Under the pieces are notes generated by a model. That model had not been told where the DNA came from, ran no database searches, and was given only the letters and a program-made list of their open reading frames with translations. Shown here piece after piece: positions 38,335 through 52,569 of a stretch of 64,000 nucleotides of DNA. The stretch covers positions 310,001 to 374,000 of the forward strand of contig NZ_JQMJ01000004.1 in the NCBI RefSeq assembly GCF_000744655.1, written 5' to 3'. Both the position numbers and the translations under genes were made by a program. Source of the DNA: Streptacidiphilus rugosus AM-16 (GTDB lineage Bacteria > Actinomycetota > Actinomycetes > Streptomycetales > Streptomycetaceae). The first letter of the stretch is position 1. Each line of letters opens with the position of its first letter.

Positions 38335-39312
38335 TCACTGCACCGCGGCCGCCACCGCCAGGCGGTCCACCGCCGCCCGCAGGCTCGCCGGGCGCAGGCT
38401 CGACGGGGGACCGGTCACGGACCGCCAGCCCGGGCCTCCCAGCAGCAGCAGCGGGGTGTGCCGCGCCCCGGCGACCCCGAGCGGAAGACCCATCAGATCG
38501 GCTGCCAGCTGGGGCCCCGCGGTGGCGCGGGACTGCGACCAGAGCAGCACGGCCGCCGGGCCCAGGCGGCGGTACGCCTGCGCCAGCGCCAGCGGCGGAA
38601 CCGCCGCTCCGAGCATCCGGAACGCGACGCCCCTGGCGGCCAGGGCCGCCGCCACCGCGTCCAGCGGCAGGGTGTGCTCCTCGCCGGGGGTCGCCGCCAG
38701 CAGCACCACCGGTCCGCGCCGCGGCACGACCGCGGCGTGGCGCCGCAGCTCGGCGGCGACGTGCCAGGACAGCAGGTGCTCGACCTCGACGTAGGTCTCC
38801 CCCAGCGCCGTCCAGCGCCGGCCGGCCGCACGCAGGGCCGGGGCGATGACGTTCTCCCAGGCGCCCTCCACACCCCAGTGGTCCAGGGCCGCCGAGAGGA
38901 GCTCCTGCACGGCCGGCGCGTCGAGCCGGTCCGCCGCCCGGATCAGCCCCCGCGCCTGCCGCCTGCCCGCCGCGTCGCCCCCGCCCTGCTCGCGCCGGTC
39001 GCCGCCCCCGGCGTCCCGGCCCGCCGGACGGGATTCGTCCGGATCGGGCTCTGACGCCCACGCGGGAAGCGGCCCGAGAACGGCACTGCGCGCGGCCTCG
39101 GCCGGGGGGTGGCCCTGGGCGGTGAGCCGGCACATCACCTCCAGCCGGGCGATGTCCGCCGCCGTCCAGCGGCGGTGGTGTCCCTCGGCGCGCTGCGCCG
39201 GTCCGATGCCGTACCGCCGTTCCCAGGAACGCAGTGTGACCGGCGAGACGCCGAGGCGGCGCGCCACCTCCCCGGTCGGCAGGCCGATCTCCGGAGCGGT
39301 GTGAGCAGGCAT
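38335..39312 (-). CDS. litR: MerR-type regulator with B12-binding domain (LitR/CarH class light sensor)
   Basis: A 325-residue two-domain protein. Residues 12-75 are a MerR HTH (LPTGEVARRLGVSPVTLRSWERRYG...HRRWTAADIARLEVMCRL). After a charged Gly-rich linker (85-118), residues 120-325 form a helical bundle plus a Rossmann-like cobalamin domain. The light-sensing motif W-x(n)-EH is present as Trp167...Glu178-His179 (one residue longer than the W-x9-EH of CarH), and the lower cobalt ligand is His213 in PGEEHTLPL. Such proteins bind adenosylcobalamin, repress DNA as tetramers in the dark and fall apart in light. GGAGG fixes the ATG. It is divergent from the SDR-DUF2867 gene; the intervening repeats look like its operator. 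Confidence 0.85.
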   Translation of the reverse strand: MPAHTAPEIGLPTGEVARRLGVSPVTLRSWERRYGIGPAQRAEGHHRRWTAADIARLEVMCRLTAQGHPPAEAARSAVLGPLPAWASEPDPDESRPAGRDAGGGDRREQGGGDAAGRRQARGLIRAADRLDAPAVQELLSAALDHWGVEGAWENVIAPALRAAGRRWTALGETYVEVEHLLSWHVAAELRRHAAVVPRRGPVVLLAATPGEEHTLPLDAVAAALAARGVAFRMLGAAVPPLALAQAYRRLGPAAVLLWSQSRATAGPQLAADLMGLPLGVAGARHTPLLLLGGPGWRSVTGPPSSLRPASLRAAVDRLAVAAAVQ

Positions 39313-39372
39313 GGGCTTCCTCCGGGTGCGTGCTACTGGGACCACCCTGTCCGAGAACGAACGGAGGGCACC

Positions 39373-39415
39373 CATCGCATCGATCCTGCATCGTCCTTAT
39401 CGATGCGGCATCGCT
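39373..39415. promoter_or_regulatory. Probable LitR/CarH operator (repeated CATCG units)
   Basis: CATCG occurs at 39373, 39378, 39389 and 39409 with TATCG at 39398; spacings of 11 (39378 to 39389; 39398 to 39409) match the 11-bp direct repeat spacing known for CarH. GCATCGAT (39377-39384) and ATCGATGC (39399-39406) are also an inverted pair. It lies in the 168-bp region between litR and the SDR gene. Confidence 0.6.
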
Positions 39416-39480
39416 GCCCTTCGTGGTCCCCCGCGCCCGGCGGGACCCTGGAAGGGCATTCCGTCGACCAGGGAGGGCCC

Positions 39481-41037
39481 ATGGTGAACGCCTCGTCTCC
39501 CCCGCCTGCCACCGCAACCGGGGCGTTGTGCCTGGTCACCGGTGCCACCGGCTACATCGGAGGACGTCTGGTCCGCGAGCTGCTGGCCGCCGGACACCGG
39601 GTCCGCTGCCTGAGCCGGGATCCGGACCGGCTGCGCGACCAGCCCTGGGCCGACCGGGTCGAACGGGTGCGCGGCGACCTGTGCGACCCGGCCACGCTCG
39701 GTCCGGCCCTGAAGGACGTCGAGGTGGTCCACTACCTGGTGCACTCGCTCGGGAGCGGCCCCGACTTCGAGCGCACCGAGGCGACCGCGGCGCGCAACCT
39801 CGCCGAGGCCGCCGCGGCGGCGAACGTCCGCCGGATCGTCTTCCTCGGCGGGCTGCTGCCGAGCGGCGTCGCCCCCGAGGCGCTCTCCCCGCACCTGCGC
39901 TCGCGGGCCAGGGTCGGGGAGATCCTGCGGTCAGGGCCGGTGCCGACGGCAGAGCTGCGGGCCGCCGTGGTGCTGGGCTCGGGATCGGCCTCGTTCGAGA
40001 TGCTGCGGCACCTGACCGAGCGGCTGCCGGTGATGGTGACGCCCCGTTGGGTCCGCACGCTGATCCAGCCCATCGCGGTCCGCGACGTGCTGCGCTACCT
40101 GGTCGCGGCGGGCGAGCTGCCGCCCGAAGTGAACCGCAGCTTCGACATCGGCGGCCCCGACGTGCTGAGCTACCGGGACATGATGCTGCGTTACGCCCGC
40201 GTCGCCGGGCTGCCGCACCGCGTCGTGCTGCCCGTCCCGGTGCTGACGCCGGCGCTGTCCAGCCTGTGGGTGGGTCTGGTCACCCCCGTGCCCGGCGGTC
40301 TGGCGCGGCCGCTGGTGGAGTCGCTGCGGCACGAGGTCGTCTGCCGGGAGAGCGACATCCGGCGCTGGATCCCCGATCCGCCCGAGGGCCTGGTCGGCTT
40401 CGAGGACGCCGTCCGCCTCGCCCTGGCACGGATCAAGGACGCCGACGTGGCGACCCGCTGGTCCTCGGCGCCGGTCCCCGGCGCGCCCAGCGATCCGCTC
40501 CCCACCGACCCGGACTGGGCGGGCGGTTCGCTCTACGAGGACGTGCGGCAGTCGGCCGTCGGGGCGAGCCCGGCGGACCTGTGGCGGGTGGTCGAGGGCA
40601 TCGGCGGCGAGAACGGCTGGTACTCCTTCCCGCTCGCCTGGGCGCTGCGCGGCGTGCTGGACCGGGTGGTGGGCGGGGTCGGCCTGCGGCGGGGCCGCCG
40701 CGACCCGCACCGGCTGCGGATCGGCGACTCGCTGGACTTCTGGCGGGTCGAGGAGATCGATGCGGGCAGCCTGCTGCGGCTGCGCGCCGAGATGCGGCTG
40801 CCGGGTCTGGCCTGGCTGGAGCTGCGGGTGCAGCCGGACGGGCCGCTGCGCTCCCGCTACCTTCAGCGGGCCGTCTTCCACCCGCGCGGCCTGGCCGGGC
40901 ACCTGTACTGGTGGAGCGTGGCGCCCTTCCACGGCATCGTCTTCGGCGGGATGGTGCGCAACATCGCCCGCGAGGCCGCCCGCGAGCGCCCTGACCCGGC
41001 GCGGCGAAGGCAGGGAAGCCTGGTCGGCCGGATCTGA
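39481..41037 (+). CDS. SDR-DUF2867 fusion protein (NAD(P)-binding oxidoreductase)
   Basis: A 518-residue protein. Residues 17-330 form an extended SDR/NmrA-like Rossmann domain (LVTGATGYIGGRLVRELLAAGH, VEVVHYLVHSLG, RIVFLGGLLPSG); residues 345-510 are DUF2867, a START-like fold (LYEDVRQSAVGASPADLWRVVEGIGGENGWY, RIGDSLDFWRVEEID, MRLPGLAWLELRV). SDR-DUF2867 proteins often lie in light-induced clusters with LitR-type regulators, and this one is divergent from litR. The reaction is unknown; a role in lipid or isoprenoid reduction has been suggested for such proteins. GGAGGG 6 nt upstream sets the ATG. Confidence 0.85.
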   Translation: MVNASSPPPATATGALCLVTGATGYIGGRLVRELLAAGHRVRCLSRDPDRLRDQPWADRVERVRGDLCDPATLGPALKDVEVVHYLVHSLGSGPDFERTEATAARNLAEAAAAANVRRIVFLGGLLPSGVAPEALSPHLRSRARVGEILRSGPVPTAELRAAVVLGSGSASFEMLRHLTERLPVMVTPRWVRTLIQPIAVRDVLRYLVAAGELPPEVNRSFDIGGPDVLSYRDMMLRYARVAGLPHRVVLPVPVLTPALSSLWVGLVTPVPGGLARPLVESLRHEVVCRESDIRRWIPDPPEGLVGFEDAVRLALARIKDADVATRWSSAPVPGAPSDPLPTDPDWAGGSLYEDVRQSAVGASPADLWRVVEGIGGENGWYSFPLAWALRGVLDRVVGGVGLRRGRRDPHRLRIGDSLDFWRVEEIDAGSLLRLRAEMRLPGLAWLELRVQPDGPLRSRYLQRAVFHPRGLAGHLYWWSVAPFHGIVFGGMVRNIAREAARERPDPARRRQGSLVGRI

Positions 41038-41148
41038 GCGGGCGAGCGATTCCTTTTCCCTCCGACGGCGGTCTACCTGGTCGAGGGGCCGGCCCGGCGA
41101 AGGGGCGGCCCGCCGACGAAGGCCGAGAGCGAAGAGGAGCTGATCGCC

Positions 41149-42153
41149 GTGAGCGTTCCCGCCACCATGCGCGCGCTGGAGCAGAGGTCGCACGGAGGTC
41201 CGCAGGACCTGCGGCTGGTCGCCGACACGCCGGTCCCGGTGCCGGGCCCCGGCGAGGTCCTGGTCAAGGTCGCCGTCGCGGGGGTGAACTTCGCCGACGT
41301 CTCCCGGTCCCGTGGGACGTTCCTCGGTGGCCCGCAGCCGCCCTACCTGGCGGGCTTCGAGGCCGCAGGGGAGGTCGTGGCGGCAGGGGAGGTCGTGGCT
41401 GCGGCGGGCACCGGCCCGCGCGCCGGGTCGCTGGTCGCGGGCGTCGGGGAGGGGGCCTTCGCGGAGTACCTGGTCCTGCCCGCGGCGGGGGCGATGCCGG
41501 TGCCCGAGGGATGGACGGCCGAACAGGCGCTGGGCCTGGTGGTGAACTGGCCCGCCGCGCTCGCCGCACTGCGGCCGCTCGGCCGGCTCGCCGCCGGGGA
41601 GACCGCGCTGATCCACGCGGCGGCGGGTGCGACCGGTCAGGCCGCGGTGCGGATGGCGAAGCACTACGGCGCGACGGTCATCGCGACCGCGTCGCGGGGC
41701 AAGCACGACACCGTGCGTGCACTCGGGGCCGACCACGTGCTGGACTCCAGGAGCGGCGACCTCGCCGCCGAGGTGCTGCGGCTGACCGGCGGCGCGGGCG
41801 CCGATCTGGTGCTGGAGTCGGCAGGCGGATCGGCGTTCGAGGCCTCGCTGGCCGCGGCCAGGCGGGTGACCGGCCGCGTGGTCGTCCTCGGGCTGGCGGG
41901 CGGGGAGGCCGCGGTCACCAACCGGGATCTGGTCTACCGGCACCAGGTCCAGCTCGTCGGCCTCAACATCGGGGTGCTGATCGGGGCCGCGCCGCAGGTC
42001 TTCGGCGAGGTCATGGGCGAGCTCTCGACGTTGGTCTCCGCCGGTGTCCTGCCGCCCGCCGCGCCCACCGTCCGTCCGCTCGCCGACGGCCCCGAGGTCC
42101 TCGCCGAGCTGGAGGCCAGGGCGACCGTCGGCAAGCTCGCGCTGCGCCCGTGA
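41149..42153 (+). CDS. NADPH:quinone oxidoreductase (MDR, zinc-free)
   Basis: A 334-residue medium-chain reductase. MRALEQRSHGGPQDLRLV..PVPVPGPGEVLVKVAVAGVNFADV is the quinone-reductase N-terminus; the nucleotide-binding loop is AAAGATGQAAVRMAKHYGATVIAT and YRHQVQLVGLNIG the substrate region. Zinc ligands of alcohol dehydrogenases are absent. It would reduce quinones or enones with NADPH in the cytoplasm. An 18-bp tandem duplication (41365-41400) doubles the hexapeptide AGEVVA. GTG start with AGGAG 8-9 nt upstream. It lies 111 bp after the SDR gene on the same strand and may share its transcript. Confidence 0.88.
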   Translation: MSVPATMRALEQRSHGGPQDLRLVADTPVPVPGPGEVLVKVAVAGVNFADVSRSRGTFLGGPQPPYLAGFEAAGEVVAAGEVVAAAGTGPRAGSLVAGVGEGAFAEYLVLPAAGAMPVPEGWTAEQALGLVVNWPAALAALRPLGRLAAGETALIHAAAGATGQAAVRMAKHYGATVIATASRGKHDTVRALGADHVLDSRSGDLAAEVLRLTGGAGADLVLESAGGSAFEASLAAARRVTGRVVVLGLAGGEAAVTNRDLVYRHQVQLVGLNIGVLIGAAPQVFGEVMGELSTLVSAGVLPPAAPTVRPLADGPEVLAELEARATVGKLALRP

Positions 42154-42227
42154 CGGCGACCGCGACGGCCGCCGCCCCGGCGGCCGTCTCCCCGGCCGGG
42201 TCGGTTCTCCCGTCCTACACTCGCGGC

Positions 42228-43241
42228 ATGACGGCGCATCCGCAGGAGGCCGCGGACCAGGAGCGCTTCACCGCGGAGACCGAGCGGTTCCGCAGGGAAC
42301 TGCTGGCGCACTGCTACCGCATGGTCGGTTCGGCGCAGGACGCCGAGGACCTGGTGCAGGAGACGTATCTGCGGGCCTGGCGTTCCTACCAGGGCTTCGA
42401 GGGCCGCGCGTCGGTGCGGACCTGGCTCTACCGGATCGCCACCAACGTCTGCCTCACGGCGCTGGAACCGCGCCGGATCCGGGTGCTGCCCTCGGGACTG
42501 ACCGGGCCGTGCGACGGGTCCGAGGGGCGGCCGCGGCAGGTGCCACCGGGTGAGGTGGCGTGGCTGGAACCGCTGCCGGAGCGCTGGATCGCTTCGGCCG
42601 GCGACGATCAAGCCGGACGGGATCCCGCCGCCGCGGTGGTCGCCCGAGAGTCGCTGCGGCTGGCGCTCATCGCGGGGCTGCAGCACCTGCCCGCGCGCCA
42701 GCGCGCGATCCTGCTGCTCCGCGAGGTGCTGGTGTTCTCCGCGAACGAGACCGCGGAGATCCTGGGCACCACCGCGGCGGCGGTCAAGAGCGGGCTGCAG
42801 CGCGCCCGCGCCCGGCTGGACGAACTCGACCCCGAACCCGAGGCCCTGCTGGAGCCGACCGACGAGCGGGCGCGGGCGCTGCTCGACGGCTACGTCGCCG
42901 CTTTCGAGCACGCCGACGCGCGGCTGCTGGAGGCCGTGCTGCGCGCGGACGCGACGCTGGAGGCGACGCCGTTCCGCGACTGGCAGGCGGGCCGGGTGAA
43001 CTGCCTCCGGATGCTCGACGCGTACGTCCTGGGCGCGCCGGGCGACTGGCGGATGCTCGCCACCACGGCCAACGGCCAGCCGGCCGCGGTCGAGTACCGG
43101 CGGGACGCCGACGGGGTGCTGCGCGCGCAGGGGGTCGTGGTGCTGACCCCGACGGCGGGCGGCGTCGCCTCCGTGGTCTCCTTCCACGATCCCGCGCTGG
43201 TCGCGGTGTTCGGCTTCCCCGAGGTGCTCGCGCCGCGCTGA
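42228..43241 (+). CDS. ECF sigma factor with C-terminal SnoaL-like domain
   Basis: A 337-residue sigma factor of the SigG/SigJ-like type. Region 2 is at about 20-85 (LLAHCYRMVGSAQDAEDLVQETYLRAWRSYQGFEG then SVRTWLYRIATNVCLTAL), region 4 at about 150-205 (LQHLPARQRAILLLREVLVFSANETAEILGTTAAAVKSGLQRARARL), and the last 125 residues are a SnoaL/NTF2-like extension (LLDGYVAAFEHADARLLEAVL ... FRDWQAGR). No anti-sigma gene is next to it; the extension normally controls such factors. Position beside litR and the photolyase gene suggests the role held by LitS in S. coelicolor, but I cannot prove orthology. TACACT (42216-42221) lies 7 nt before the ATG, so the gene is likely leaderless. Confidence 0.87.
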   Translation: MTAHPQEAADQERFTAETERFRRELLAHCYRMVGSAQDAEDLVQETYLRAWRSYQGFEGRASVRTWLYRIATNVCLTALEPRRIRVLPSGLTGPCDGSEGRPRQVPPGEVAWLEPLPERWIASAGDDQAGRDPAAAVVARESLRLALIAGLQHLPARQRAILLLREVLVFSANETAEILGTTAAAVKSGLQRARARLDELDPEPEALLEPTDERARALLDGYVAAFEHADARLLEAVLRADATLEATPFRDWQAGRVNCLRMLDAYVLGAPGDWRMLATTANGQPAAVEYRRDADGVLRAQGVVVLTPTAGGVASVVSFHDPALVAVFGFPEVLAPR

Positions 43242-43266
43242 ACCGCGCCTCGGCGAACCGCTGCGC

Positions 43267-43289
43267 GAACGATGCGCTGTGCATCGTTC
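43267..43289. promoter_or_regulatory. Perfect inverted repeat sharing the GCATCGT core with the litR operator
   Basis: GAACGATGC-N5-GCATCGTTC (43267-43289), 9-bp arms, lies 26 bp after the sigma gene stop and 164 bp before the photolyase ATG. There is no T-tract. The half-site GCATCGT also occurs at 39388-39394 in the litR operator. It could be a second LitR site upstream of the photolyase gene or a terminator of the sigma gene. Confidence 0.5.
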
Positions 43290-43453
43290 CTCGGGCCTGG
43301 ATTTGCTGGGGCGTGGCGAGGGCCTCCCCCGACGGCACGTCCGTAGGCTCTCGCTGCGCGGCGGCCGGAACGGCCGAAATGGCGGGCCCGTCCCCGGCCG
43401 CCGCACCACGGGGTGACGCGACGGGTGTCCCCTGCCAGGAAAGGCGCCACGGC

Positions 43454-44821
43454 ATGACGGTCCGGATCTGCCTGTTCACCCGCGATCTGCGGCTCGCCGA
43501 CAATCCGGTGCTGTTCGCGGCCTCGGCGGGCGGAAGGGCGGACGTCGTCCCGGTGTTCGTCAGCGATCCCGCCGTCGCGGCCGCCGGGTTCGCGGCCCTG
43601 AACCGGCTGGCCTTCCTGCACGACTGCCTGGCCGATCTGGACCGGGGTCTGCGCGCCTGCGGCAGCCGGCTGGTGGTGCGTCACGGACCGGTCGCCGAGG
43701 ACGTCGCGCGGCTGGTGGAGCAGACCGGCGCGGTCGAGGTGCACACGGCCGCCGACCACAGCGCGTTCGCCCTCGCCCGCGAGGAGCGGCTCCGCGCGGC
43801 CCTGAACGGTCTCGGGGCCAGGCTGGTCACCCACGAGGCCGTGCTGACGGCCGTCGCGCCGGGCACGGCGGTGCCGACCGGCTCCGACCACTACGCGGTC
43901 TTCACCCCGTACCTGCGCCGCTGGTCCACGGTGCCGCTGCGGACGCCGCTGCCCGCGCCGCGCCGGCTGCGGACCCCGGCCGAGCCCGCGTCGGAGGCGT
44001 TGCCGGCCCGCCCAGGACCGAGTTCGCTCTCACCGCTGCTGGCGGCCGGCGGGGAGGTGGCCGGGCGTCGCCGGATGACCCAGTGGCTGGACCACCACCT
44101 GGACGCGTACGAGGACGAACACGACGCCCTGGCGGACGACCTGACCTCGCGTCTCTCCCCCGACCTGCACTTCGGCACGCTGTCCGCCGCTGAACTCGTC
44201 CAGCGGGCCAGGTCCGCGCCGAGCGCCGGGGCGCAGGCCTTCGAACGGCAGGTGGCCTGGCGCGACTTCCACCACCAGGTGCTCGCCGCCCGGCCGCAGG
44301 CCTCGCGGCAGGACTACCGTCCCCGTCACGACACCTGGCGGGACGCTCCCGAGGAGCTGCGGGCCTGGCAGGAGGGTCGTACCGGGTACCCGCTGGTGGA
44401 CGCGGGCATGCGGCAGCTGGCCGCGGAGGGGTGGATGCACAACCGGGCCCGCATGGTCACGGCGAGCTTCCTGTGCAAGACCCTCGGGATCGACTGGCGG
44501 GAGGGGGCGCGCCACTTCCTCTCCCTTCTGGTCGACGGCGACGTGGCCAACAACCAGATGAACTGGCAGTGGGTCGCGGGTACCGGCACCGACACCCGGC
44601 CGAACCGCGTGCTCAACCCCACGGCCCAGGCCAAGCGCTACGACCCCGAGGGCGAGTACGTCCGCCGCTGGGTGCCCGAGCTGGCCCGGCTCAGTGCGCC
44701 CGCGATCCACGAGCCGTGGAAGCTGCCCCCGGGTCTGCGGGCCGAACTCGGCTACCCGGAACCGCTGGTGGCGCTCGACGAGGCCCTCGCCAGGTTCCGC
44801 CGCCGACGGGGCGCCGACTGA
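43454..44821 (+). CDS. phr: Deoxyribodipyrimidine photolyase
   Basis: A 455-residue flavoprotein of the class I CPD photolyase family. The N-terminal alpha/beta domain starts ICLFTRDLRLADNPVLFAAS; the FAD-binding helical domain has FERQVAWRDFHHQVLAARP, GYPLVDAGMRQLAAEGWMHNRARMVTASFLCKTLGIDW (by position about 310-350), and DVANNQMNWQWVAGTGTDTRPNRVLNPTAQAKRYDPEGEYVRRW, with the conserved N/W residues of the FAD and lesion site. It repairs UV-induced cyclobutane dimers using blue light. A photolyase gene beside a LitR regulator is a classical light-induced pairing. GGAAAGG lies upstream of the ATG, and the inverted repeat at 43267-43289 precedes it. Confidence 0.93.
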   Translation: MTVRICLFTRDLRLADNPVLFAASAGGRADVVPVFVSDPAVAAAGFAALNRLAFLHDCLADLDRGLRACGSRLVVRHGPVAEDVARLVEQTGAVEVHTAADHSAFALAREERLRAALNGLGARLVTHEAVLTAVAPGTAVPTGSDHYAVFTPYLRRWSTVPLRTPLPAPRRLRTPAEPASEALPARPGPSSLSPLLAAGGEVAGRRRMTQWLDHHLDAYEDEHDALADDLTSRLSPDLHFGTLSAAELVQRARSAPSAGAQAFERQVAWRDFHHQVLAARPQASRQDYRPRHDTWRDAPEELRAWQEGRTGYPLVDAGMRQLAAEGWMHNRARMVTASFLCKTLGIDWREGARHFLSLLVDGDVANNQMNWQWVAGTGTDTRPNRVLNPTAQAKRYDPEGEYVRRWVPELARLSAPAIHEPWKLPPGLRAELGYPEPLVALDEALARFRRRRGAD

Positions 44822-44889
44822 CACCGCCCGGCCCGCTACTGTTGCCTACCGACTGGTAACCAAGCGCGCCCGAGTCCCCGAGGTGTCCG

Positions 44890-45297
44890 ATGACCGACAG
44901 CACCCCCGCCCCCGCCGCCGCGTCCCCCGCCGCTCCGTCCGCCACCGCGCTGGCGGGGCTGCTCGCCGTCGCTGGGGCGACGCACTTCCTCGCGCCCAAG
45001 CCCTTCGACGCGATCGTGCCGCGGGCCCTGCCGGGGCGGGCCAGGACCTGGACGTACGTGAGCGGCGTGGCCGAGCTGACGGTCGCGGCGGCGCTGGCCA
45101 ACCCTCGGACCCGCAGGGCGGGCGGCTGGATGGCCGCCGGTCTCTTCCTGGCCGTGCTGCCCGCGAACGTGCAGATGGCGCTGGACTGGCAGGACCGGGC
45201 CCCGGCGCTGCGGGCCGCGGCCTGGGGCCGGGTGCCGCTCCAGGTCCCGCTGGTGGTGCGGTCGCTGCGGATCGCGCGGGCCGGCCGTCGCGGCTGA
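44890..45297 (+). CDS. DoxX-like small membrane protein
   Basis: A 135-residue protein with four probable hydrophobic segments. GLLAVAGATHFLAPKPFDAIVPRALPGRARTWTYVSGVAELTVAAAL (by position, about 23-70) has the THF..P..FD.IVP..LPG motif of DoxX/MauE-like proteins in actinobacteria. DoxX proteins are quinone- or thiosulfate-linked membrane subunits or parts of oxidative stress complexes; here the function is open. It follows the photolyase gene by 68 bp on the same strand and could belong to the light response. Confidence 0.75.
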   Translation: MTDSTPAPAAASPAAPSATALAGLLAVAGATHFLAPKPFDAIVPRALPGRARTWTYVSGVAELTVAAALANPRTRRAGGWMAAGLFLAVLPANVQMALDWQDRAPALRAAAWGRVPLQVPLVVRSLRIARAGRRG

Positions 45298-45464
45298 CCG
45301 ACCGGGCCGACCCGCCCCGGTCGTCAGCACCGGTCTCGTCCACCCCTCAGGGCCAGGGACGGGCCGAGTCGGCTGACGGGCCTGGCCGAGGTCTGCCGGC
45401 GGGGTCGACCGCCGACGGGCACCCCGATCATGCGTGCCGTGGGGGCGCGCCGTAGTCTGCAGGC

Positions 45465-46103
45465 ATGAGTGACTCCATGGCACGGACTCCCCGGGAAACC
45501 TTCGACCTGCTGATGGCGGGCAACCAGCGCTTCGTCGCGGGCTCGCCGGAGCACCCGAACCAGGACGCCGCCCGCCGTGCCGAGGTGGCCCCCGGCCAGA
45601 GCCCCTTCGCGGTGCTGTTCGGCTGCTCCGACTCGCGCCTGGCCGCCGAGATCATCTTCGACCGCGGCCTGGGCGACCTGTTCGTCGTCCGCACCGCCGG
45701 TCACGTGATGGGTCCCGAGGTGCTCGGCAGCATCGAGTACGGCGTGAGCCTGCTGGGCTGCCCGCTGGTGATCGTGCTGGGCCACGACTCCTGCGGCGCG
45801 GTGGGCGCGGCGCGTGACGCCGTCGGCGGGGCTCCCGCGGCGGAGGGCTACGTGCGCGACGTGATCGAGCGTGTCACGCCGAGCATCCTGGCCTCCCGCG
45901 CCGCCGGGCACACCGAGGACTCCGACTTCATAGCGGAACACGTCCGCGCCTCCGTCGACCTGCTGCTGGACCGCTCCCGCGCGCTCAGCGAGGCGGTGGA
46001 CGCCGGCCGCACGGCGGTGGTCGGCCTGTCCTACCGGCTCACCGACGGCACCGCGAACGTCGTCACCACCCGCGGCCTCGACGCGGTCGGCGCCGCCGTC
46101 TGA
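45465..46103 (+). CDS. Beta-carbonic anhydrase
   Basis: A 212-residue zinc enzyme interconverting CO2 and bicarbonate. Zinc ligands Cys54, His107 and Cys110 are in LFGCSDSRLAAE and LGHDSCGAVGAA; Asp56-Arg58 form the catalytic dyad. The protein begins FDLLMAGNQRFVAGSPEHPN, a usual Streptomyces form. TAGTCT (45453-45458) lies 6 nt before the ATG and there is no ribosome site, so a leaderless mRNA is likely. It is the last plus-strand gene before the convergent lipid operon. Bicarbonate is a bound cofactor in cyclopropane synthases, which gives a possible but unproven link to its neighbours. Confidence 0.92.
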   Translation: MSDSMARTPRETFDLLMAGNQRFVAGSPEHPNQDAARRAEVAPGQSPFAVLFGCSDSRLAAEIIFDRGLGDLFVVRTAGHVMGPEVLGSIEYGVSLLGCPLVIVLGHDSCGAVGAARDAVGGAPAAEGYVRDVIERVTPSILASRAAGHTEDSDFIAEHVRASVDLLLDRSRALSEAVDAGRTAVVGLSYRLTDGTANVVTTRGLDAVGAAV

Positions 46104-46128: not shown

Positions 46129-46947
46129 TCAGACCCGGCGCGGCGGACGGGGGAAGAAGCCGCTGGTGCGGGCCCGGTAGGCGGCGTAGCCGGGACGGTC
46201 GGCCATGTGCCGCTCCAGCAGCGCCTTGCCGCTGCCCGCGGTGAGCAGGAAGGTCATCGTCAGCGGCGAGACCACGGTGGCGGCGGCGACCGCGAGGCCG
46301 GTGCAGGCGAGCAGGTACAGGCCCCACCAGACCAGGAAGTCGCCGAAGTAGTTGGGGTGCCTGGTCCAGGCCCACAACCCCCGGTCCATGATCCGGCCGC
46401 GGTTCGCCGGATCGGCCTTGAAGGCGCGCAACTGCCAGTCGCCGACCGCCTCGAAGGCGACACCGGCCCCCCAGACCAGCGCCGCCACCACGGCGAGCAC
46501 GCCGACCGGCTCGGGCGCGTAGCAGGCCGCCTGCACCGGGAGCGAGATCAGCCACACCAGCGCGGCCTGCAGCAGGTAGACCATCCGCAGCGCGTACCAG
46601 GCCCGGCGGGCGGCCCCCGGCCCGGCCTTGGCGAGCATCCGCTCGTAGCGCGGGTCCTCGCCGTGGCCGCGCCCGCGCCAGGCGATGTGCAGGCACAGCC
46701 GCAGCCCCCACGCCACCGTCAGCGCGGTGACCAGCGCGCGCCGTCCGGGGTCCCCGTGGCCTCCCGCCGCCGCGACGGCGCAGGAGGTCACCGCGACGGC
46801 CGCGAAGGCGAGCCCCCAGGCGCTGTCGACGATCCGGTGGATCCCCTTGACCAGGGCGATCGCGAAGGTCGCCAGCAGTACGGCGAGCGCCGCGCCCGCG
46901 GCGGCGGCGAGGTTCGCCGCGAACGCCGCCCACGGGAAGGCGTTCAC
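46129..46947 (-). CDS. DUF1295 membrane protein (steroid 5-alpha-reductase-like)
   Basis: A 272-residue protein with six or seven membrane helices. The C-terminal GDWQLRAFKADPANRGRIMDRGLWAWTRHPNYFGDFLVWWGLYL (by position, about 175-220) is the NAD(P)H/isoprenylcysteine methyltransferase-like core of DUF1295 and steroid 5-alpha-reductases, with the HPNYFG motif. It is the last gene of the five-gene operon (GTGA overlap with the preceding methyltransferase at 46944-46947). In Mycobacterium tuberculosis the counterpart Rv0446c lies next to ufaA1 and sigK. It could reduce a double bond left by the methyltransferases, for example a 10-methylene acyl chain; this is inference. Confidence 0.87.
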   Translation of the reverse strand: MNAFPWAAFAANLAAAAGAALAVLLATFAIALVKGIHRIVDSAWGLAFAAVAVTSCAVAAAGGHGDPGRRALVTALTVAWGLRLCLHIAWRGRGHGEDPRYERMLAKAGPGAARRAWYALRMVYLLQAALVWLISLPVQAACYAPEPVGVLAVVAALVWGAGVAFEAVGDWQLRAFKADPANRGRIMDRGLWAWTRHPNYFGDFLVWWGLYLLACTGLAVAAATVVSPLTMTFLLTAGSGKALLERHMADRPGYAAYRARTSGFFPRPPRRV

Positions 46948-48284
46948 CGCGCCGACCTCGGCTCCGGCCGACCGGGGCCGTCCCACCCGTCGCGCTCCTC
47001 GCCCCGCCCGGCGGATCCGGCCGGACGGCGGGCCAGGATCTGGTCGACGCCCATCCTGCCCTGCTCGAAGGCGAGCGAGCCGCCGACGAGATAGAGCCGC
47101 CAGACCCGCGCGGTGACCTCGCCGACCATGGCGGTGAACTCCTCCCAGCGCTCCTCGAGCGTGTCGTGCCAGGCGTCGACGGTGGCCACGTAGTGCTCGC
47201 GCAGCGCCTGCACGTCCCGGATCTCGAAGCCGGCCCGCTCCAGCAGCGCCAGCGTCCCGCTGAGCGGCCGCATGTGCATGTCCGGGGCGATGAAGGACTC
47301 GATGAACGCGCCGCCGCCGGGGGCGTTCGCGCCGCGCGACATCTGCTGGACCAGCAGCCGGCCGCCCGGAGCCAGAGCCCGGTGCAGCAGCCCCGCGAAG
47401 TCGGGGTACTGGTCGTCCCCGACGTGCTCGCCCATCTCGATCGTGGTGACCGCGTCGAACCCGGCCGCCTCGACGTCGCGCCAGTGCTGGTGCCGGATCT
47501 CGACGCGGTCGCCCAGGCCCTGCTCCTTCACCCGGTCGCGGACGAAGCGGGCCTGCTCCGCGGCCAGAGTGACGCCGGTGGCGTGGACGCCGTGGTGCCG
47601 GGCCGCATGCAGGACCAGCGCGCCCCAGCCGCAGCCGATGTCCAGCAGCCGCATGCCGGGGCGCAGTTCGAGCTTGCGGCAGATCAGGTCGAGCTTGTCG
47701 CGCTGCGCGTCGGCGAGGGTGTACCCGTGCTCGTCGCTCGCCCAGTAGGCGCAGGAGTAGGCCATCGAGGGGTCGAGCAGCAGCGCGTAGAAGTCGTTGG
47801 ACAGGTCGTAGTGGTGACTGATCGCCGCCCGGTCCCTGGTCCGGCTGTGCAGCGCACCGCGCAGCCTGGCCTGCCCCTGCGGCGCGGCCGGGCGTGGGCC
47901 GACCGCGCCGAGCCGGGCCGCGGTGACCGCGGCCCGCGCCAGCGGCCCGACCCCGGGCCGCTGCCGCACCAGCCCACGCTGCTCCACGGCCTGACGGACC
48001 GCCCGCAGCGCCTCGCGCAGGTCCCCCTCGGCGTCCAGCTCGCCGCTCACGTAGGCCTGGGCGAGGCCGAGTTCGTCCGGCTGCCACAGCAGACGGCGCA
48101 GCGCCCGCCGGGAGCGCAGGACCAGGGTGGGCGCACCCGGTGCACCGGCGGTGCTGCCGTCCCAGGCGCGCACCCGCAGCGGCGCGGGCGAGCCGGTGAG
48201 CTCCTCGATCAGCGGCAGCAGCCGGGCCGCCGCGCCCGACTCCGCGCGGCGGTCGCGGGCGCCGCGGTCCGCGGTGGTGGTCAT
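46944..48284 (-). CDS. Cyclopropane-fatty-acyl-phospholipid synthase family methyltransferase (second copy)
   Basis: A 446-residue SAM-dependent enzyme. Residues 20-120 form the N-terminal lipid-binding region (LRVRAWDGS...GLAQAYVSGELD); SAM motif I is LLDIGCGWG (213-221). The active-site Cys is present (Cys178 in YSCAYW) and EHVG (286-289) carries the bicarbonate-binding Glu; the position of E. coli His266 is Gln (LVQQMS, about 311-316), so the bicarbonate site is altered. C-terminal REHY supplies the Tyr. It would methylenate or methylate acyl-chain double bonds of membrane phospholipid. ATGA overlap with the preceding gene (48281-48284). It has no counterpart in the M. tuberculosis block. 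Confidence 0.9.
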   Translation of the reverse strand: MTTTADRGARDRRAESGAAARLLPLIEELTGSPAPLRVRAWDGSTAGAPGAPTLVLRSRRALRRLLWQPDELGLAQAYVSGELDAEGDLREALRAVRQAVEQRGLVRQRPGVGPLARAAVTAARLGAVGPRPAAPQGQARLRGALHSRTRDRAAISHHYDLSNDFYALLLDPSMAYSCAYWASDEHGYTLADAQRDKLDLICRKLELRPGMRLLDIGCGWGALVLHAARHHGVHATGVTLAAEQARFVRDRVKEQGLGDRVEIRHQHWRDVEAAGFDAVTTIEMGEHVGDDQYPDFAGLLHRALAPGGRLLVQQMSRGANAPGGGAFIESFIAPDMHMRPLSGTLALLERAGFEIRDVQALREHYVATVDAWHDTLEERWEEFTAMVGEVTARVWRLYLVGGSLAFEQGRMGVDQILARRPAGSAGRGEERDGWDGPGRPEPRSAR

Positions 48285-49546
48285 GCGCCCTCCGCGCGGG
48301 TGAGCAGGATCTGCCGGACGTCCAGGTAGCCGGAGCGGAACCCGGCCTCGGAGTAGGCGAGGTAGAGGGTCCACATGCGGCGGAACGCCTCGTCGAAGCC
48401 GAGCTCGGCGACCTCGTCCGCGTGCGCGGTGAACCGCTCGCGCCACAGCCGCAGGGTCTCCGCGTAGTGCTGCCCGAACCCGTTGCCGCCGCTCACCCGC
48501 AGCCGGGTGTGCGCGCGGGTGGCCTCCTCGATGGCCTCGTTGGAGGGCAGCATCCCGCCGGGGAAGATGTACTTGTGGATCCAGGTGTAGGTGCGGCGGG
48601 TGGCCAGCAGCCGGTCGTGCGGCATGGTGATGGCCTGGAGGGCGACCCGGCCGCGCGGGGCGAGCACGGAGTCGAGCGTGCGGAAGTAGGTGGGCCAGTA
48701 CTCGACGCCCACGGCCTCGATCATCTCCACGCTCACCACGGCGTCGAAGCGGCCGTCGCGCAGCGGCTCCAGCCGCCGGTAGTCCTGGAGCCGGATCTCG
48801 ACCGCGTCCGCGACCCCGGCGGCGCGCACCCGGTCGAGCGCGAGGTCGTGCTGCTCCTGGGAGAGCGTCAGCGACAGGACGGTCGCGCCGCGCCTGGCCG
48901 CGCGGATGCACAGCTCCCCCCAGCCGGTGCCGATCTCCAGCACCCGGCTGCCGGGGCCGACCCCGGCCAGGTCCAGCAACCGGTCGATCTTGGCATGCTG
49001 GGCCCGTTCCAAGTCCTCCCAGCGCGCAGGCAGTTCGGCGAAGACGGCGCTGGAGTAGGTGAGCGAGTCGTCCAGGAAGAGCCGGAACAGCTCGTTGGAC
49101 AGGTCGTAGTGGGCACGGATGTTGGTGCGCGAGGCCGCCTCGCTGTTGGCGCCGTGCGGCTGCCGTGACTCCCACAGCCGCCGCAGCCGCTGGAGCGAGG
49201 GCGGCACCAGCGTGGTGAGCTGCTCGGCCATCACGGTCAGCGCGCCGGGCAGGTCGGGCGCGTCCCACTCGCCCGCCTGGTAGGACTCGCCGAAGCCGAT
49301 CAGACCGTCCTCGGCCAGCCGGGCCGTGAACGCCTCGGGGTCGTGCACCTGCAGCAGCGGGCCTCCTCGTCCCAGGATCCGCTCGCCCATCAGGACGCGC
49401 AGCGGAAGCCGGCTCAGTGCGCGGGTGATGACCGCGCGGGCCACGGCCGTGCGCAGCGGTGAACTCTCGGGGACGCGGACGACGTCGGCCCAGCGTTGCG
49501 GGTCGATCCGGTCCCGCAGGAGCGGCTGGGTCTGCTGCAGGGTCAC
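48281..49546 (-). CDS. UfaA1-like fatty-acyl methyltransferase (CFA synthase superfamily, first copy)
   Basis: A 421-residue member of the CFA family but of the UfaA1 type. SAM motif I is VLEIGTGWGELC (202-213) with Thr instead of Cys. The catalytic positions of cyclopropane synthases are changed: YSC is YSS (Ser166), EHVG is EAVG (277-280) and the His266 equivalent is Gln304 (ALQAIT). The PHDRLLATRRTYTWIHKYIFPGG region (309-331) is conserved. Rv0447c (UfaA1) of M. tuberculosis, from the same gene block, is reported to methylate oleoyl chains toward tuberculostearic acid, so a methyl or methylene branch rather than a ring is expected. GTG start overlaps the preceding stop (49543-49546). Confidence 0.9.
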   Translation of the reverse strand: MTLQQTQPLLRDRIDPQRWADVVRVPESSPLRTAVARAVITRALSRLPLRVLMGERILGRGGPLLQVHDPEAFTARLAEDGLIGFGESYQAGEWDAPDLPGALTVMAEQLTTLVPPSLQRLRRLWESRQPHGANSEAASRTNIRAHYDLSNELFRLFLDDSLTYSSAVFAELPARWEDLERAQHAKIDRLLDLAGVGPGSRVLEIGTGWGELCIRAARRGATVLSLTLSQEQHDLALDRVRAAGVADAVEIRLQDYRRLEPLRDGRFDAVVSVEMIEAVGVEYWPTYFRTLDSVLAPRGRVALQAITMPHDRLLATRRTYTWIHKYIFPGGMLPSNEAIEEATRAHTRLRVSGGNGFGQHYAETLRLWRERFTAHADEVAELGFDEAFRRMWTLYLAYSEAGFRSGYLDVRQILLTRAEGA

Positions 49547-50355
49547 TTCATGCCCTCCTGGGGCTGGTGGCGGTTACGCGGGACGACGGGCAGTCCGCGC
49601 AGGTAGAGGCGGATGCCGTGGAAGCGGATGGCGAGGGTCGCGGCCAGCGGCGCGAGCGGGTGGCGCAGCGCGGCGGCGGCCAGGGCCGGGAGGGTGCAGG
49701 GGCGTCCGACGCCCTTCACGGTGGCGGTGAAGGCCCGTGCGGCGTCCAGGTCCAGATGCACGGTCAGGTCGAGGCGCTCGCCCGGAGTGGGCAGCCGCAT
49801 CCGGTAGCGGCCGGCGACCGGGAGGAACGGGGAGACGTAGAAGGCCTTGTCCGCGGCAGCGTCGCGGGCGGCCTCCGGGCCGAGCAGGTAGGCGTGGCGG
49901 CCGCCGTAGGTGTTGTGGACCTCGGCGACGACCTGGCGCAGCGCGCCGTCCTCGTCGTGGCACCAGTAGACGCTGAGCGGGTTGAAGACGTAGCCGAACA
50001 CGCGGGCCTGGGCCAGCATCAGCACCCGTCCGCGCGCGGGCGCGGCCCCCTGCCCGGCGAGGAAGCGGTCCAGACCGGCGCGGATGGTGGGCCCGGCCCC
50101 GTCGAAGTGGTCGCGGCCGCGGAAGCCGGCCAGCGGGCGGAGCGGGCGCGGCAGGACGGGGAGGGCGTCGAGGTCGACGAGCCAGTAGTAGGTGCGGTGG
50201 TCCAGCGCGTAACGCTGCCGTGCGGTCCTGACGTGCCGGACCCGGCTGTCGTAGAGCATCGCGCCGACCGGCGGGGTCGCGCCGGACGCGGTGCCGGCGG
50301 CCCCGGCCGCGGGCCGCGCCGTTCCCTGCTCGGGACCGTGCGCCGTCATGTTCAC
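49543..50355 (-). CDS. DUF1365 family protein
   Basis: A 270-residue protein of unknown activity. RQRYALDHRTYYWLVDLDALP, FNPLSVYWCHDEDGALRQVVAEVHNTYGGRHAYLL (by position, about 120-155) and KAFYVSPFLPVAGRYRMRL are the DUF1365 hallmark. Counterpart of Rv0448c; the family is regularly found with FAD oxidoreductase and CFA-type genes and in singlet-oxygen response loci of Rhodobacter. It may bind or process a modified acyl chain. GTG start overlaps the stop of the FAD gene (GTGA, 50352-50355); an internal ATG two codons later is possible. Confidence 0.88.
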   Translation of the reverse strand: MNMTAHGPEQGTARPAAGAAGTASGATPPVGAMLYDSRVRHVRTARQRYALDHRTYYWLVDLDALPVLPRPLRPLAGFRGRDHFDGAGPTIRAGLDRFLAGQGAAPARGRVLMLAQARVFGYVFNPLSVYWCHDEDGALRQVVAEVHNTYGGRHAYLLGPEAARDAAADKAFYVSPFLPVAGRYRMRLPTPGERLDLTVHLDLDAARAFTATVKGVGRPCTLPALAAAALRHPLAPLAATLAIRFHGIRLYLRGLPVVPRNRHQPQEGMK

Positions 50356-51623
50356 CAGTCGACCCCCAGAGCCGCGGCCGCCGCCACTCCGGAGCGGCAG
50401 CCGTCCTCGTGGAAGCCCCAGCCGTGCCAGGCGCCGGCGAAGGCGCAGACGGGGCTGTTCAGCTCGGGCAGCCGGGCCTGGGCCGCGACGGACCCTGTGG
50501 TGTAGACGGGATGCTCGTACTCCATGCGGTCCAGCACCGTCGCCGGGTCGACGAGCGCGCCGCCGTTGAGCGTGACCAGGAACCGGTCGGGGGTGTCCAG
50601 GCGTTGCAGGCGGTTCATGTCGTAGCTGACCTGGACCGCTCCGGACTCCGCGTCGCAGGCGGGCAGCAGGTGGTTCCAGGACGCCTGCGCGGCGCGGCGG
50701 CGCGGCAGCACCGAGGCGTCCCCGTGCAGCTGGGCGGGGTTGCGCGAGTAGCGGAAGGCGCCGAGCACCTCGCGCTCGGCGCTCGTCGGTGCGTCCAGGA
50801 CGGCGAGCGTCCGGTGCGGATGGAGCGCCAGCACCACGGCCCGGTACGCGCGGACCTCCCCGCTCGCGTCCTCGACCTGCGCGGCGGCGGCCTCCCGCAC
50901 GACCCGGGTCACCGGTGTGCCGGTGCGGACCTGGTGCAGCTGCTTGGCGACCCGGCGCACGTACTCCTGCGACCCGCCGGTGACGGTGCGCCAGGTGGGC
51001 GAGCCGGTGACGGACAGCATGCCGTGGTGCTGCAGGAAGCGGAACAGGTACCTGGCCGGGTAGCCGAGGGCGACGTCGGCCGGGCAGGACCACACCGCGG
51101 AGACCACCGGGGTGAGGAAGTGCGCCACGAAGTAGGGCGAGAAGCCGTGCCGGCGGGCGAACGCGCCGACCGTGTCCGCCGGTCCGCCGGGCTGCTCGGG
51201 GGCCGCCAGGAGGGCGCGGGCGCTGCGGTGGAAGCGCGGCACCTCCGCGAGCATGCGCAGGTACCTGGGGTCGGCGGCGCGGCGCGGCTGCGCGAACAGG
51301 CCGCGCGGCCCGCGCGCGCCCGCGTACTCGAGTCCGCAGCCCTCGCAGCGCACGGACATGCTCATCTCCGACTCCTGCGTGCCGACGCCGAGCTCGGAGA
51401 AGAGCCGGAGCAGGTTCGGATAGGTGCGCCGGTTGTGCACGATGAAGCCGGTGTCCACGCGCTGCAGCACTCCGTGCGCGTCGACCCGGTCATGGGTGTG
51501 CGCGTGCCCGCCGAGCCGGTCGTCGGCCTCGTACAGCGTCACGTCGAACCGCCGCTGCAACACGTGCGCCGCAGTCAGCCCGGCCACCCCGCTGCCGACC
51601 ACCGCGACCCGCTCCCGCTCCAT
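50352..51623 (-). CDS. FAD-dependent NAD(P)/amine-oxidase-type oxidoreductase
   Basis: A 423-residue flavoprotein. The FAD-binding fold is RVAVVGSGVAGLTAAHVLQRRFDVTLYEADDRLGGH (residues about 5-40), with RRTYPNLLRLFSELGV and a C-terminal CAFAGAWHGWGFHEDGCRSGVAAA that closes the flavin site. Cys pairs at RCEGCGLEY may bind metal. Counterpart of Rv0449c and first gene of the operon. It could oxidise or desaturate the acyl chain or the methylene intermediate. The ATG at 51623 has GGAGAG 5-10 nt upstream; a GTG immediately before it is possible. Upstream lies a SigK-like promoter (51665-51691) giving a 35-nt leader. Confidence 0.9.
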   Translation of the reverse strand: MERERVAVVGSGVAGLTAAHVLQRRFDVTLYEADDRLGGHAHTHDRVDAHGVLQRVDTGFIVHNRRTYPNLLRLFSELGVGTQESEMSMSVRCEGCGLEYAGARGPRGLFAQPRRAADPRYLRMLAEVPRFHRSARALLAAPEQPGGPADTVGAFARRHGFSPYFVAHFLTPVVSAVWSCPADVALGYPARYLFRFLQHHGMLSVTGSPTWRTVTGGSQEYVRRVAKQLHQVRTGTPVTRVVREAAAAQVEDASGEVRAYRAVVLALHPHRTLAVLDAPTSAEREVLGAFRYSRNPAQLHGDASVLPRRRAAQASWNHLLPACDAESGAVQVSYDMNRLQRLDTPDRFLVTLNGGALVDPATVLDRMEYEHPVYTTGSVAAQARLPELNSPVCAFAGAWHGWGFHEDGCRSGVAAAAALGVDW

Positions 51624-51664
51624 CACGACTCTCCCCGCGCGCCGTCCGAACCCTCTCGTGGGGT

Positions 51665-51691
51665 ATTCGGGGCAGCGGCGCGCACGGATGG
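51665..51691 (-). promoter_or_regulatory. ECF-type promoter resembling the mycobacterial SigK consensus
   Basis: On the minus strand CCATCC (51691-51686) and CCGAAT (51670-51665) are 15 bp apart. These hexamers match what I recall as the SigK promoter of M. tuberculosis, which drives the homologous Rv0449c block and mpt genes. Predicted start near 51657, 35 nt before the ATG of the FAD oxidoreductase. Confidence 0.55.
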
Positions 51692-51703: not shown

Positions 51704-51737
51704 GACGGCTCCCCGCCGGGTTCGGCGGGGAGCCGTC
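51704..51737 (-). terminator. Terminator hairpin after the COG4705-like gene
   Basis: A perfect 15-bp stem (51704-51718 with 51723-51737, core GACGGCTCCCCGCCG) and GGTT loop lies 30 nt beyond the stop of the gene at 51768-52547 on the minus strand. It insulates that gene from the SigK-like promoter of the lipid operon. Confidence 0.75.
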
Positions 51738-51767: not shown

Positions 51768-52547
51768 TCAGGCGACGTCCTTGCGGGTCACGCCCAGGTA
51801 GCCGACGAGTGCGGCGATGACCGCGGCCAGGACGAGGCTGACCCAGCCGGTCCCCCAGTCCAGACCGCCGCGCTGCTGCGAGACGCCCATCCAGTCCGCG
51901 AAGGAGGCCCCCAGCGGGCGGGTCACCACGTAGGCGAACCAGAACGCGAAGATCGGGTTCAGGCCGGCCTTCCAGTGCCCCAGCGTCGGGATCGCGATCA
52001 GCCCGGCGAAGAGCAGGCCGGAGGAGAAGTAGCCCAGGTGCAGCGTGGTCGCCGTCATGTCGCCGGTGGCGGTGCCGAGGGCGAAGGTGGTGAGCACGGT
52101 GGCCCAGTAGAAGAGCTCGCGCCGGCGGGTGGTGATGCTGTGGATCGAGAGGGTCTTCTCCGTGGCGTACCAGAGCCCGAAGATCGCCGCGAGCACGAGG
52201 GCGAAGAAGGACGCCGACACCACGTAGGCGATCCCGAACTGGACGTGCAGCACGTCCGCCGCCATGGTGCCGAAGACGCTGACCATCACGACCGCGGTCC
52301 AGTAGATCGCGGCCGAGTACCGCTTCACCCCCAGCTGGACGGCCAGCGAGAGCACCAGCACGAGGCCGGCCGCCGCGACGGTCAGCTGCGGGTCGAACCG
52401 CTTCACCAGGAAGTCGGAGGTGGTCTCGCCCATGCCGGTGGTGAGCACCTTGATGATCCAGAAGAGCGCGGTGACTTCCGGAACCTTGCTCAGCGCCTGG
52501 CGGGCCTGGGCGCCGGGACGCGACTGCAGCAGTTGATCTCTCGCCAT
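51768..52547 (-). CDS. COG4705-like polytopic membrane protein
   Basis: A 259-residue protein with eight probable membrane helices. Two internally similar halves carry KVLTTGMGETTSDFLVKRF and ATGDMTATTLHLGYFSSGLLFA, and RPLGASFADWMGV; the TG.GE..SD/TGD..T pattern is that of the uncharacterised COG4705 family. Function unknown; these proteins may be transporters of a small molecule. The ATG at 52547 was preferred to the GTG at 52565 because AAGG lies 10 nt upstream. It lies between the lipid operon and a Gfo/Idh/MocA gene, flanked by hairpins on both sides, so it is a single transcription unit. Confidence 0.75.
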   Translation of the reverse strand: MARDQLLQSRPGAQARQALSKVPEVTALFWIIKVLTTGMGETTSDFLVKRFDPQLTVAAAGLVLVLSLAVQLGVKRYSAAIYWTAVVMVSVFGTMAADVLHVQFGIAYVVSASFFALVLAAIFGLWYATEKTLSIHSITTRRRELFYWATVLTTFALGTATGDMTATTLHLGYFSSGLLFAGLIAIPTLGHWKAGLNPIFAFWFAYVVTRPLGASFADWMGVSQQRGGLDWGTGWVSLVLAAVIAALVGYLGVTRKDVA

Positions 52548-52569
52548 GGAGGGAGAGCCTTCCACACGA

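Follow-up and report, generated by a model that had tools for sequence, protein, structure and literature searches.

The question raised by this locus is which lipid product a five-gene operon makes and which signal switches it on. The operon (46129–51623, minus strand) lies in a window of 64,000 nt, which is the whole stretch of DNA analysed (Streptacidiphilus rugosus AM-16, contig NZ_JQMJ01000004.1, positions 310,001 to 374,000). Because the operon encodes relatives of UfaD, UfaO and UfaM and shares a promoter motif with the gene of the extracytoplasmic function (ECF) sigma factor SigK, we consider it likely that its products are furan fatty acids on membrane lipids, formed upon SigK release and predictably under photo-oxidative (singlet-oxygen) stress. 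The predicted wiring of SigK to the operon is well supported, and furan is the likely product. The light signal is suggested by the genes that adjoin or regulate the cassette in other organisms.

Gene Organization of the Operon

The positions of the open reading frames (ORFs), read from the sequence, showed five minus-strand genes whose ends overlap or nearly touch. Their Pfam order is an amine-oxidase-type flavin adenine dinucleotide (FAD) enzyme, a DUF1365 protein, two CMAS-type methyltransferases and a DUF1295 protein. The ufaD-like FAD oxidoreductase gene (50352..51623; Amino_oxidase PF01593) begins at ATG 51623, with GGGGAG 7 nt upstream (GTG 51626 is also possible). The ufaO-like DUF1365 gene (49543..50349; PF07103, E 4.9e-65) begins at ATG 50349 (GTG 50355 is also possible). 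It is followed by MT1, an S-adenosylmethionine-dependent methyltransferase of the UfaM type (48281..49546), the second CMAS-type methyltransferase MT2 (46944..48284) and a steroid-reductase-like DUF1295 membrane protein (46129..46947; PF06966, E 1.5e-66). The five genes look like a single transcription unit, because their junctions are three 4-nt overlaps and one 2-nt gap, which becomes a 4-nt overlap if the GTG start is used. Pfam and the ORF positions thus confirmed the gene content and order given in a preliminary description of the window.

The SigK-Type Promoter Motif

The motif CCATCC-N15-CCGAAT is located upstream of the operon at 51665..51691 on the minus strand, with CCATCC at 51691–51686 and CCGAAT at 51670–51665, exactly as described before. 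Judging from the −10 spacing, transcription may start 35 nt before the ATG. We take promoters of this type to be recognised by the SigK of Mycobacterium. The pattern CCATCC-N14-17-CCGAAT had six exact matches in the 9.0-Mb genome, and a reversed-pattern control had none. Two of the matches (L009, L011) fall within predicted coding regions. The remaining four stand before a gene for an ECF factor of 221 amino acids, the ufa operon, a molybdopterin oxidoreductase gene followed by a fasciclin lipoprotein gene, and a secreted-protein group.

Conservation was assessed in 55 actinobacterial UfaO loci: 14 from the genus, another 18 from the family and a further 23 from the class. Upstream of the operon, the best site was exact in 19 loci and within one mismatch in 36, and the reversed control gave 0 and 0. 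Among the 32 Streptomycetaceae loci, the motif upstream of ufaD was exact in 18 and within one mismatch in 30. Dinucleotide shuffles of these loci (n = 640) yielded no exact site and two within one mismatch, and the antisense strand yielded 2/32. The family footprint was approximately CMATCCG-N14-CCGAAT. We further compared neighbourhoods of 13–20 kb around the ufa block in 31 other genomes, using best labels at E 1e-12. In these relatives, the motif with at most one mismatch preceded ufaD in 29/31, sigK in 11/20 and the molybdoenzyme gene in 5/6, with reversed controls of 0 throughout. It was not found upstream of their inner operon genes (ufaO 0/31, MT1 0/29, MT2 0/12, DUF1295 0/29).

The motif of the secreted-protein group lies approximately 200 nt before the gene of a secreted protein without a Pfam family, which is followed by sortase and cupredoxin genes (L008, G000:C4:4867000-4878000). 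One relative has a similar protein close to ufa (L242, 37%), and it likewise carries the motif.

The SigK–RskA Pair and Its Association with the Cassette

A search for the cognate ECF factor, suggested in the preliminary description, found a SigK–RskA pair with the same promoter motif in the same genome. Against solved structures, the ECF factor of 221 amino acids matched SigK best (4nqw, E 4.1e-47), followed by R. sphaeroides RpoE (2q1z, E 3.8e-21). Two cysteines were kept in its alignment with SigK and would correspond to C133 and C183 of M. tuberculosis, given an apparent offset of 17. The gene after sigK encodes RskA (RskA_C PF10099, E 3.5e-28). The pair is located 196 kb from the ufa operon, and the motif is common to sigK, ufaD and the fasciclin operon of this genome. 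The enzyme families and this motif-sharing pair support the earlier proposal that a SigK-type promoter precedes an acyl-chain pathway.

The cassette and SigK also occur together. Among 61 genomes of the family, UfaO was present in 28 and SigK in 38; all 28 UfaO genomes had SigK, compared with 10 of the 33 others (Fisher 2.8e-9, although species are not independent). The distance between sigK and UfaO was at most 8 kb in 18 of the 28. The labels found in the 31 neighbourhoods were sigK (20, one of which, L246, is a 35% match without rskA), rskA (19), MT1 (29), DUF1295 (29), MT2 (12), DUF2867 (10), fasciclin (8) and molybdoenzyme (6). Since sigK, rskA, fasciclin and molybdoenzyme labels occur in ufa neighbourhoods, the motif-bearing genes that are dispersed in this genome often form clusters in relatives. 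In Tsukamurella (Mycobacteriales), ufaD-ufaO-CMAS is followed by lipocalin-sigK-rskA and has the exact motif, and in Streptomyces NBC_00069 rskA-sigK is divergent from ufaD-ufaO-CMAS-DUF1295.

The operon could instead be driven by another ECF factor, such as one encoded in the window itself (TIGR02960 type with a long C-terminal part, within 42150–43241, plus strand). This gene ends 2.9 kb from the operon and stands beside a LitR-type regulator and a photolyase gene. It was, however, the best label of no ORF in the neighbourhoods of the 31 other genomes, in which sigK was found 19–20 times, and the motif precedes sigK itself in 11/20 such loci and in this genome. We therefore regard control by this or another ECF factor as very improbable and favour SigK.

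Two family genomes (G055:C26, G062:C3) have MT2 at a site apart from the ufa operon, where an additional copy of sigK lies at a distance of 2.3 and 3.2 kb. This gives the impression of an independent sigK-MT2 module.

Methyltransferases MT1 and MT2

A methyltransferase tree was built with 88 of 161 collected sequences. MT1 joined the proteobacterial CMAS genes that follow UfaO with a support of 99/97; the same clade includes one class-D sequence and four sequences whose position is unassigned. MT2 paired with a Streptomycetaceae paralog as its sister (support 100/100). The sequences were then compared at C139, E239, H266, I268 and Y317, which we take to be the bicarbonate-site positions of E. 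coli Cfa. His266 was replaced by Gln in 54/54 alignable UfaM-class proteins (56 in all) and in 52/52 MT1 proteins, and Cys139 by Ser or Ala in 54/56 and 52/52, respectively. MT1 of this operon has S, E, Q, I and Y (C139 to S, H266 to Q) and thus does not keep the full bicarbonate site of a cyclopropane synthase.

MT2 has C, E, Q, M and Y in 12/12 (H266 to Q, I268 to M), whereas the family paralog keeps C, E, H, I and Y in 7/7. Because Gln stands at His266 in all 12 while the sister paralog keeps His, MT2 looks like a duplicate of the family paralog in which ring closure was lost independently. The close group of MT2 was present in 16/28 UfaO genomes and 0/33 others (Fisher 1.5e-7), and within 1.6 kb of UfaO in 12 of the 16.

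MT1 and MT2 might be ordinary cyclopropane fatty acid synthases by which an acid-tolerant genus copes with acid or general stress. Both belong to the CMAS family, and the best solved matches of both are structures named cyclopropane synthases. The Gln at the bicarbonate-site His in MT1 and MT2, its retention as His in the family paralog, and an intact paralog in the same genome (L212) argue against this explanation, which we consider improbable. If the furan reading is true, Gln in place of His266 would serve as a CMAS-fold signature by which UfaM-type methylases can be told from cyclopropane synthases; in the protein search, many MT2 relatives had cyclopropane-synthase names.

A second CMAS gene also occurs in Proteobacteria. 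DUF1295 was found in 27/80 proteobacterial ufaD loci (e.g., L140-L145, L163-L172), beside ECF-ChrR or ufaD, and such loci often have a second CMAS gene, termed class D, which is deeply separate. Class D keeps His266 in 15/16 and has Phe for Ile268 in 15/16.

UfaD, UfaO and the Predicted Product

UfaD of this operon is 43% identical to an Azospirillum gene and 35% to a Qingshengfaniella gene, both in ECF-cupin/ChrR-linked loci, and it shares invariant columns across the nine sequences compared. UfaO is 33–35% identical to the Qingshengfaniella and Azospirillum plasmid relatives, and its closest named DUF1365 proteins are from Streptacidiphilus (74–83% identity). A UfaO-like protein also occurs in S. 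peucetius, a laboratory Streptomyces. UfaO was present in 76 of the 80 proteobacterial ufaD loci, which are the nearest relatives of one query, some of them contig-cut.

The AlphaFold model of UfaO has a confident, beta-rich fold with a mean predicted local distance difference test (pLDDT) score of 87. Its best structural matches, nitrobindin-like proteins and lipid-binding barrels, are weak, at a level that may mean nothing.

The preliminary description had left the product between a 10-methyl/methylene and a furan type. According to the pathway described for R. sphaeroides, UfaM, UfaD and UfaO convert vaccenate to a methyl-furan fatty acid; UfaO is the DUF1365 protein, the ring oxygen comes from O2, and a second methyl is added by R. 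palustris FufM (PMC7380195). Halomonas UfaM expressed in E. coli is reported to give the expected methyl-alkene (PMC12089945). Of the two proposed products, furan is favoured, because UfaO accompanies UfaD and MT1 falls in the UfaM clade.

The operon could still make 10-methyl or 10-methylene branched fatty acids of the tuberculostearate type, with the FAD enzyme as the reductase. UfaA1, a mycobacterial CMAS protein encoded in this block, is reportedly linked to 10-methyl chemistry. UfaO is not known to have a part in that chemistry, and it is found in nearly all the ufaD loci (76 of 80); UfaD belongs to the amine-oxidase family, and MT1 groups with methylases that follow UfaO. These points make a 10-methyl product unlikely, with a small chance of being correct.

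For the furan product, we propose the following steps. RskA, a membrane anti-sigma factor, would hold SigK until removed by a photo-oxidative signal. SigK would then transcribe sigK-rskA, the ufa operon, the molybdoenzyme-fasciclin pair and the secreted-protein/sortase group. MT1 would methylate a mono-unsaturated phospholipid chain at its double bond, with no ring closure, UfaD would introduce a second double bond, and UfaO would insert an O2-derived oxygen so that the furan is closed. MT2 may add a further methyl, as Rhodopseudomonas FufM does. The DUF1295 protein may perform some reductive step. The furans would act as scavengers of singlet oxygen; if the ChrR system is a guide, they may also contribute to its signalling.

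Light Genes and the Activating Signal

The photo-oxidative signal is suggested by the surroundings of the cassette elsewhere. The labels near the ufa block in the 31 relatives included photolyase in 10 and LitR-type MerR in 10, with either one in 17. ECF with ChrR was found in 48 of the 80 proteobacterial ufaD loci, photolyase in 18 and MerR in 5; 22 had none of ECF, ChrR or MerR. The gene order in Salinivibrio is MerR-photolyase-NTF2-SDR-ufaD-ufaO-CMAS, and the Azoarcus cassette has a divergent MerR. On a Qingshengfaniella plasmid, rpoE-chrR is divergent from the FAD enzyme, DUF1365, MFS and DUF2177 genes, and on an Azospirillum plasmid ufaD/ufaO lie beside ECF-cupin.

Published regulons point in the same direction. 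The singlet-oxygen-induced RpoE regulon of R. sphaeroides includes ufaM (as cfaS), ufaD, ufaO, photolyase and fasciclin genes (PMC7074977, Table 1), and, according to the same paper, a singlet-oxygen-induced pair of R. capsulatus resembles SigK-RskA of M. tuberculosis more closely than it does RpoE-ChrR of R. sphaeroides. In M. kansasii, mpk83/mpk70, which have putative SigK sites, are reported to be raised by light (PMC9861118), and in Nesterenkonia RskA is reported to be lowered by ultraviolet light (PMC8965627).

Several observations weigh against the proposed product, wiring or signal. The light genes next door are neighbours and not visible SigK targets, because the motif with at most one mismatch was found upstream of the neighbouring photolyase gene in 0/10 and of LitR in 0/10 among the 31 relatives. 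It precedes only 11/20 sigK labels and 2/8 fasciclin labels there, and the ufaD site of Streptomyces NBC_00069 has two mismatches. The 23 class loci outside the family, two of which are contig-cut, gave one exact site and six within one mismatch, and the ufa block of a Rhodococcus plasmid had no sigK in the 12.7 kb covered. UfaD and UfaO share only 33–43% identity with the two proteobacterial relatives from ECF-linked loci that were compared, and the characterised R. sphaeroides and R. palustris sequences were not among the 80 loci. Streptomycetes are rich in saturated branched chains, and the unsaturated substrate is thus unclear. As for the signal, 14 genes of M. kansasii are listed as raised after 20 min of light, with none of the ufa block among those listed, and the rise of mpk83/mpk70 was smaller than that of the crt and photolyase genes (PMC9861118). 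M. tuberculosis SigK is described as released by reduction and not by oxidation, and contact with macrophages was the only condition that the authors found to activate mpt70p; this 2020 SigK-RskA paper still called the nature of the activating signal unknown (PMC7509140).

The light island of the window (38335–46103) adjoins the operon. Besides the ECF gene, it holds a LitR/CarH-type MerR gene with a B12 domain (38335-39375, minus strand), a photolyase gene (ending at 44821, plus strand), and NmrA/DUF2867, ADH, MauE-like and carbonic anhydrase genes.

On the other side of the promoter, a terminator-like 15-bp perfect inverted repeat without a T run was read from the sequence (51704..51737, minus strand). 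Behind it, on the same strand and 144 nt upstream of the ufaD ATG, lies a gene for a four-repeat membrane protein, DUF347 (51768-52565). The DUF347 label was found in the ufa neighbourhoods of 0/31 relatives.

Comparison with Known Systems

A described enzyme cassette stands here under a described sigma factor, a combination not found in the literature searched, and MT2 is a new lineage-specific methylase. A wider proposal, which we put forward tentatively and which may well prove wrong, is that SigK-RskA, which switches the antigen regulon of mycobacteria, is the actinobacterial singlet-oxygen system, and that its regulon, with the furan fatty acid operon and fasciclin, is the counterpart of that of RpoE-ChrR. 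Furan lipids would be both shield and sensor, and the streptomycete MT2, with its convergent loss of the ring-closing histidine, would lead to dimethyl-furan lipids. If our reading is true, the SigK switch known from tuberculosis bacteria would be tied to defence against light damage, and bacterial furan fatty acids would extend to actinobacteria. For SigK-RskA, the candidate regulon of this soil bacterium suggests one signal and one product, both of which can be tested.

The Mycobacterium SigK-RskA regulon shares sigK, RskA, the type of promoter motif and the ufaD-ufaO-CMAS block with the system described here, as well as the fasciclin target and the autoregulation that are predicted here. 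The M. tuberculosis block Rv0449c-Rv0446c, which we take to have the same order without the second methyltransferase, presumably lies beside sigK. Here, sigK is 196 kb away, MT2 is added, and the molybdoenzyme-fasciclin pair stands in for mpt83-dipZ-mpt70. This block comparison was run on Tsukamurella and Streptomyces relatives with annotated sigK (L028, L029), not on M. tuberculosis DNA.

The furan pathway of R. sphaeroides and R. palustris uses the same three enzyme families, and ufaD, ufaO and ufaM of R. palustris are adjacent by locus number (RPA2571-2569), as given in PMC7380195. The ECF control in R. sphaeroides has its parallel in the SigK control predicted for this operon. The present system differs in being actinobacterial, in having SigK-RskA for RpoE-ChrR and an extra DUF1295 protein, and in a second methyltransferase of other descent than the clades tested. 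The gene order of Qingshengfaniella resembles the RSP1091-1087 operon; neither in Qingshengfaniella nor in Azospirillum does a SigK-type motif with at most one mismatch precede ufaD. The RpoE-ChrR (ECF11) regulon, as set out in PMC7074977, likewise includes ufaD, ufaO, UfaM and fasciclin, with the cupin-type zinc anti-sigma factor ChrR in place of RskA. FufM (RPA0924, the 9M5-FuFA methylase) is, like MT2, a second CMAS-type methylase, and it is reported from only some of the organisms with the furan pathway. It is reported to be 26% identical to UfaM (PMC7380195), whereas MT2 appears to descend from a streptomycete paralog.

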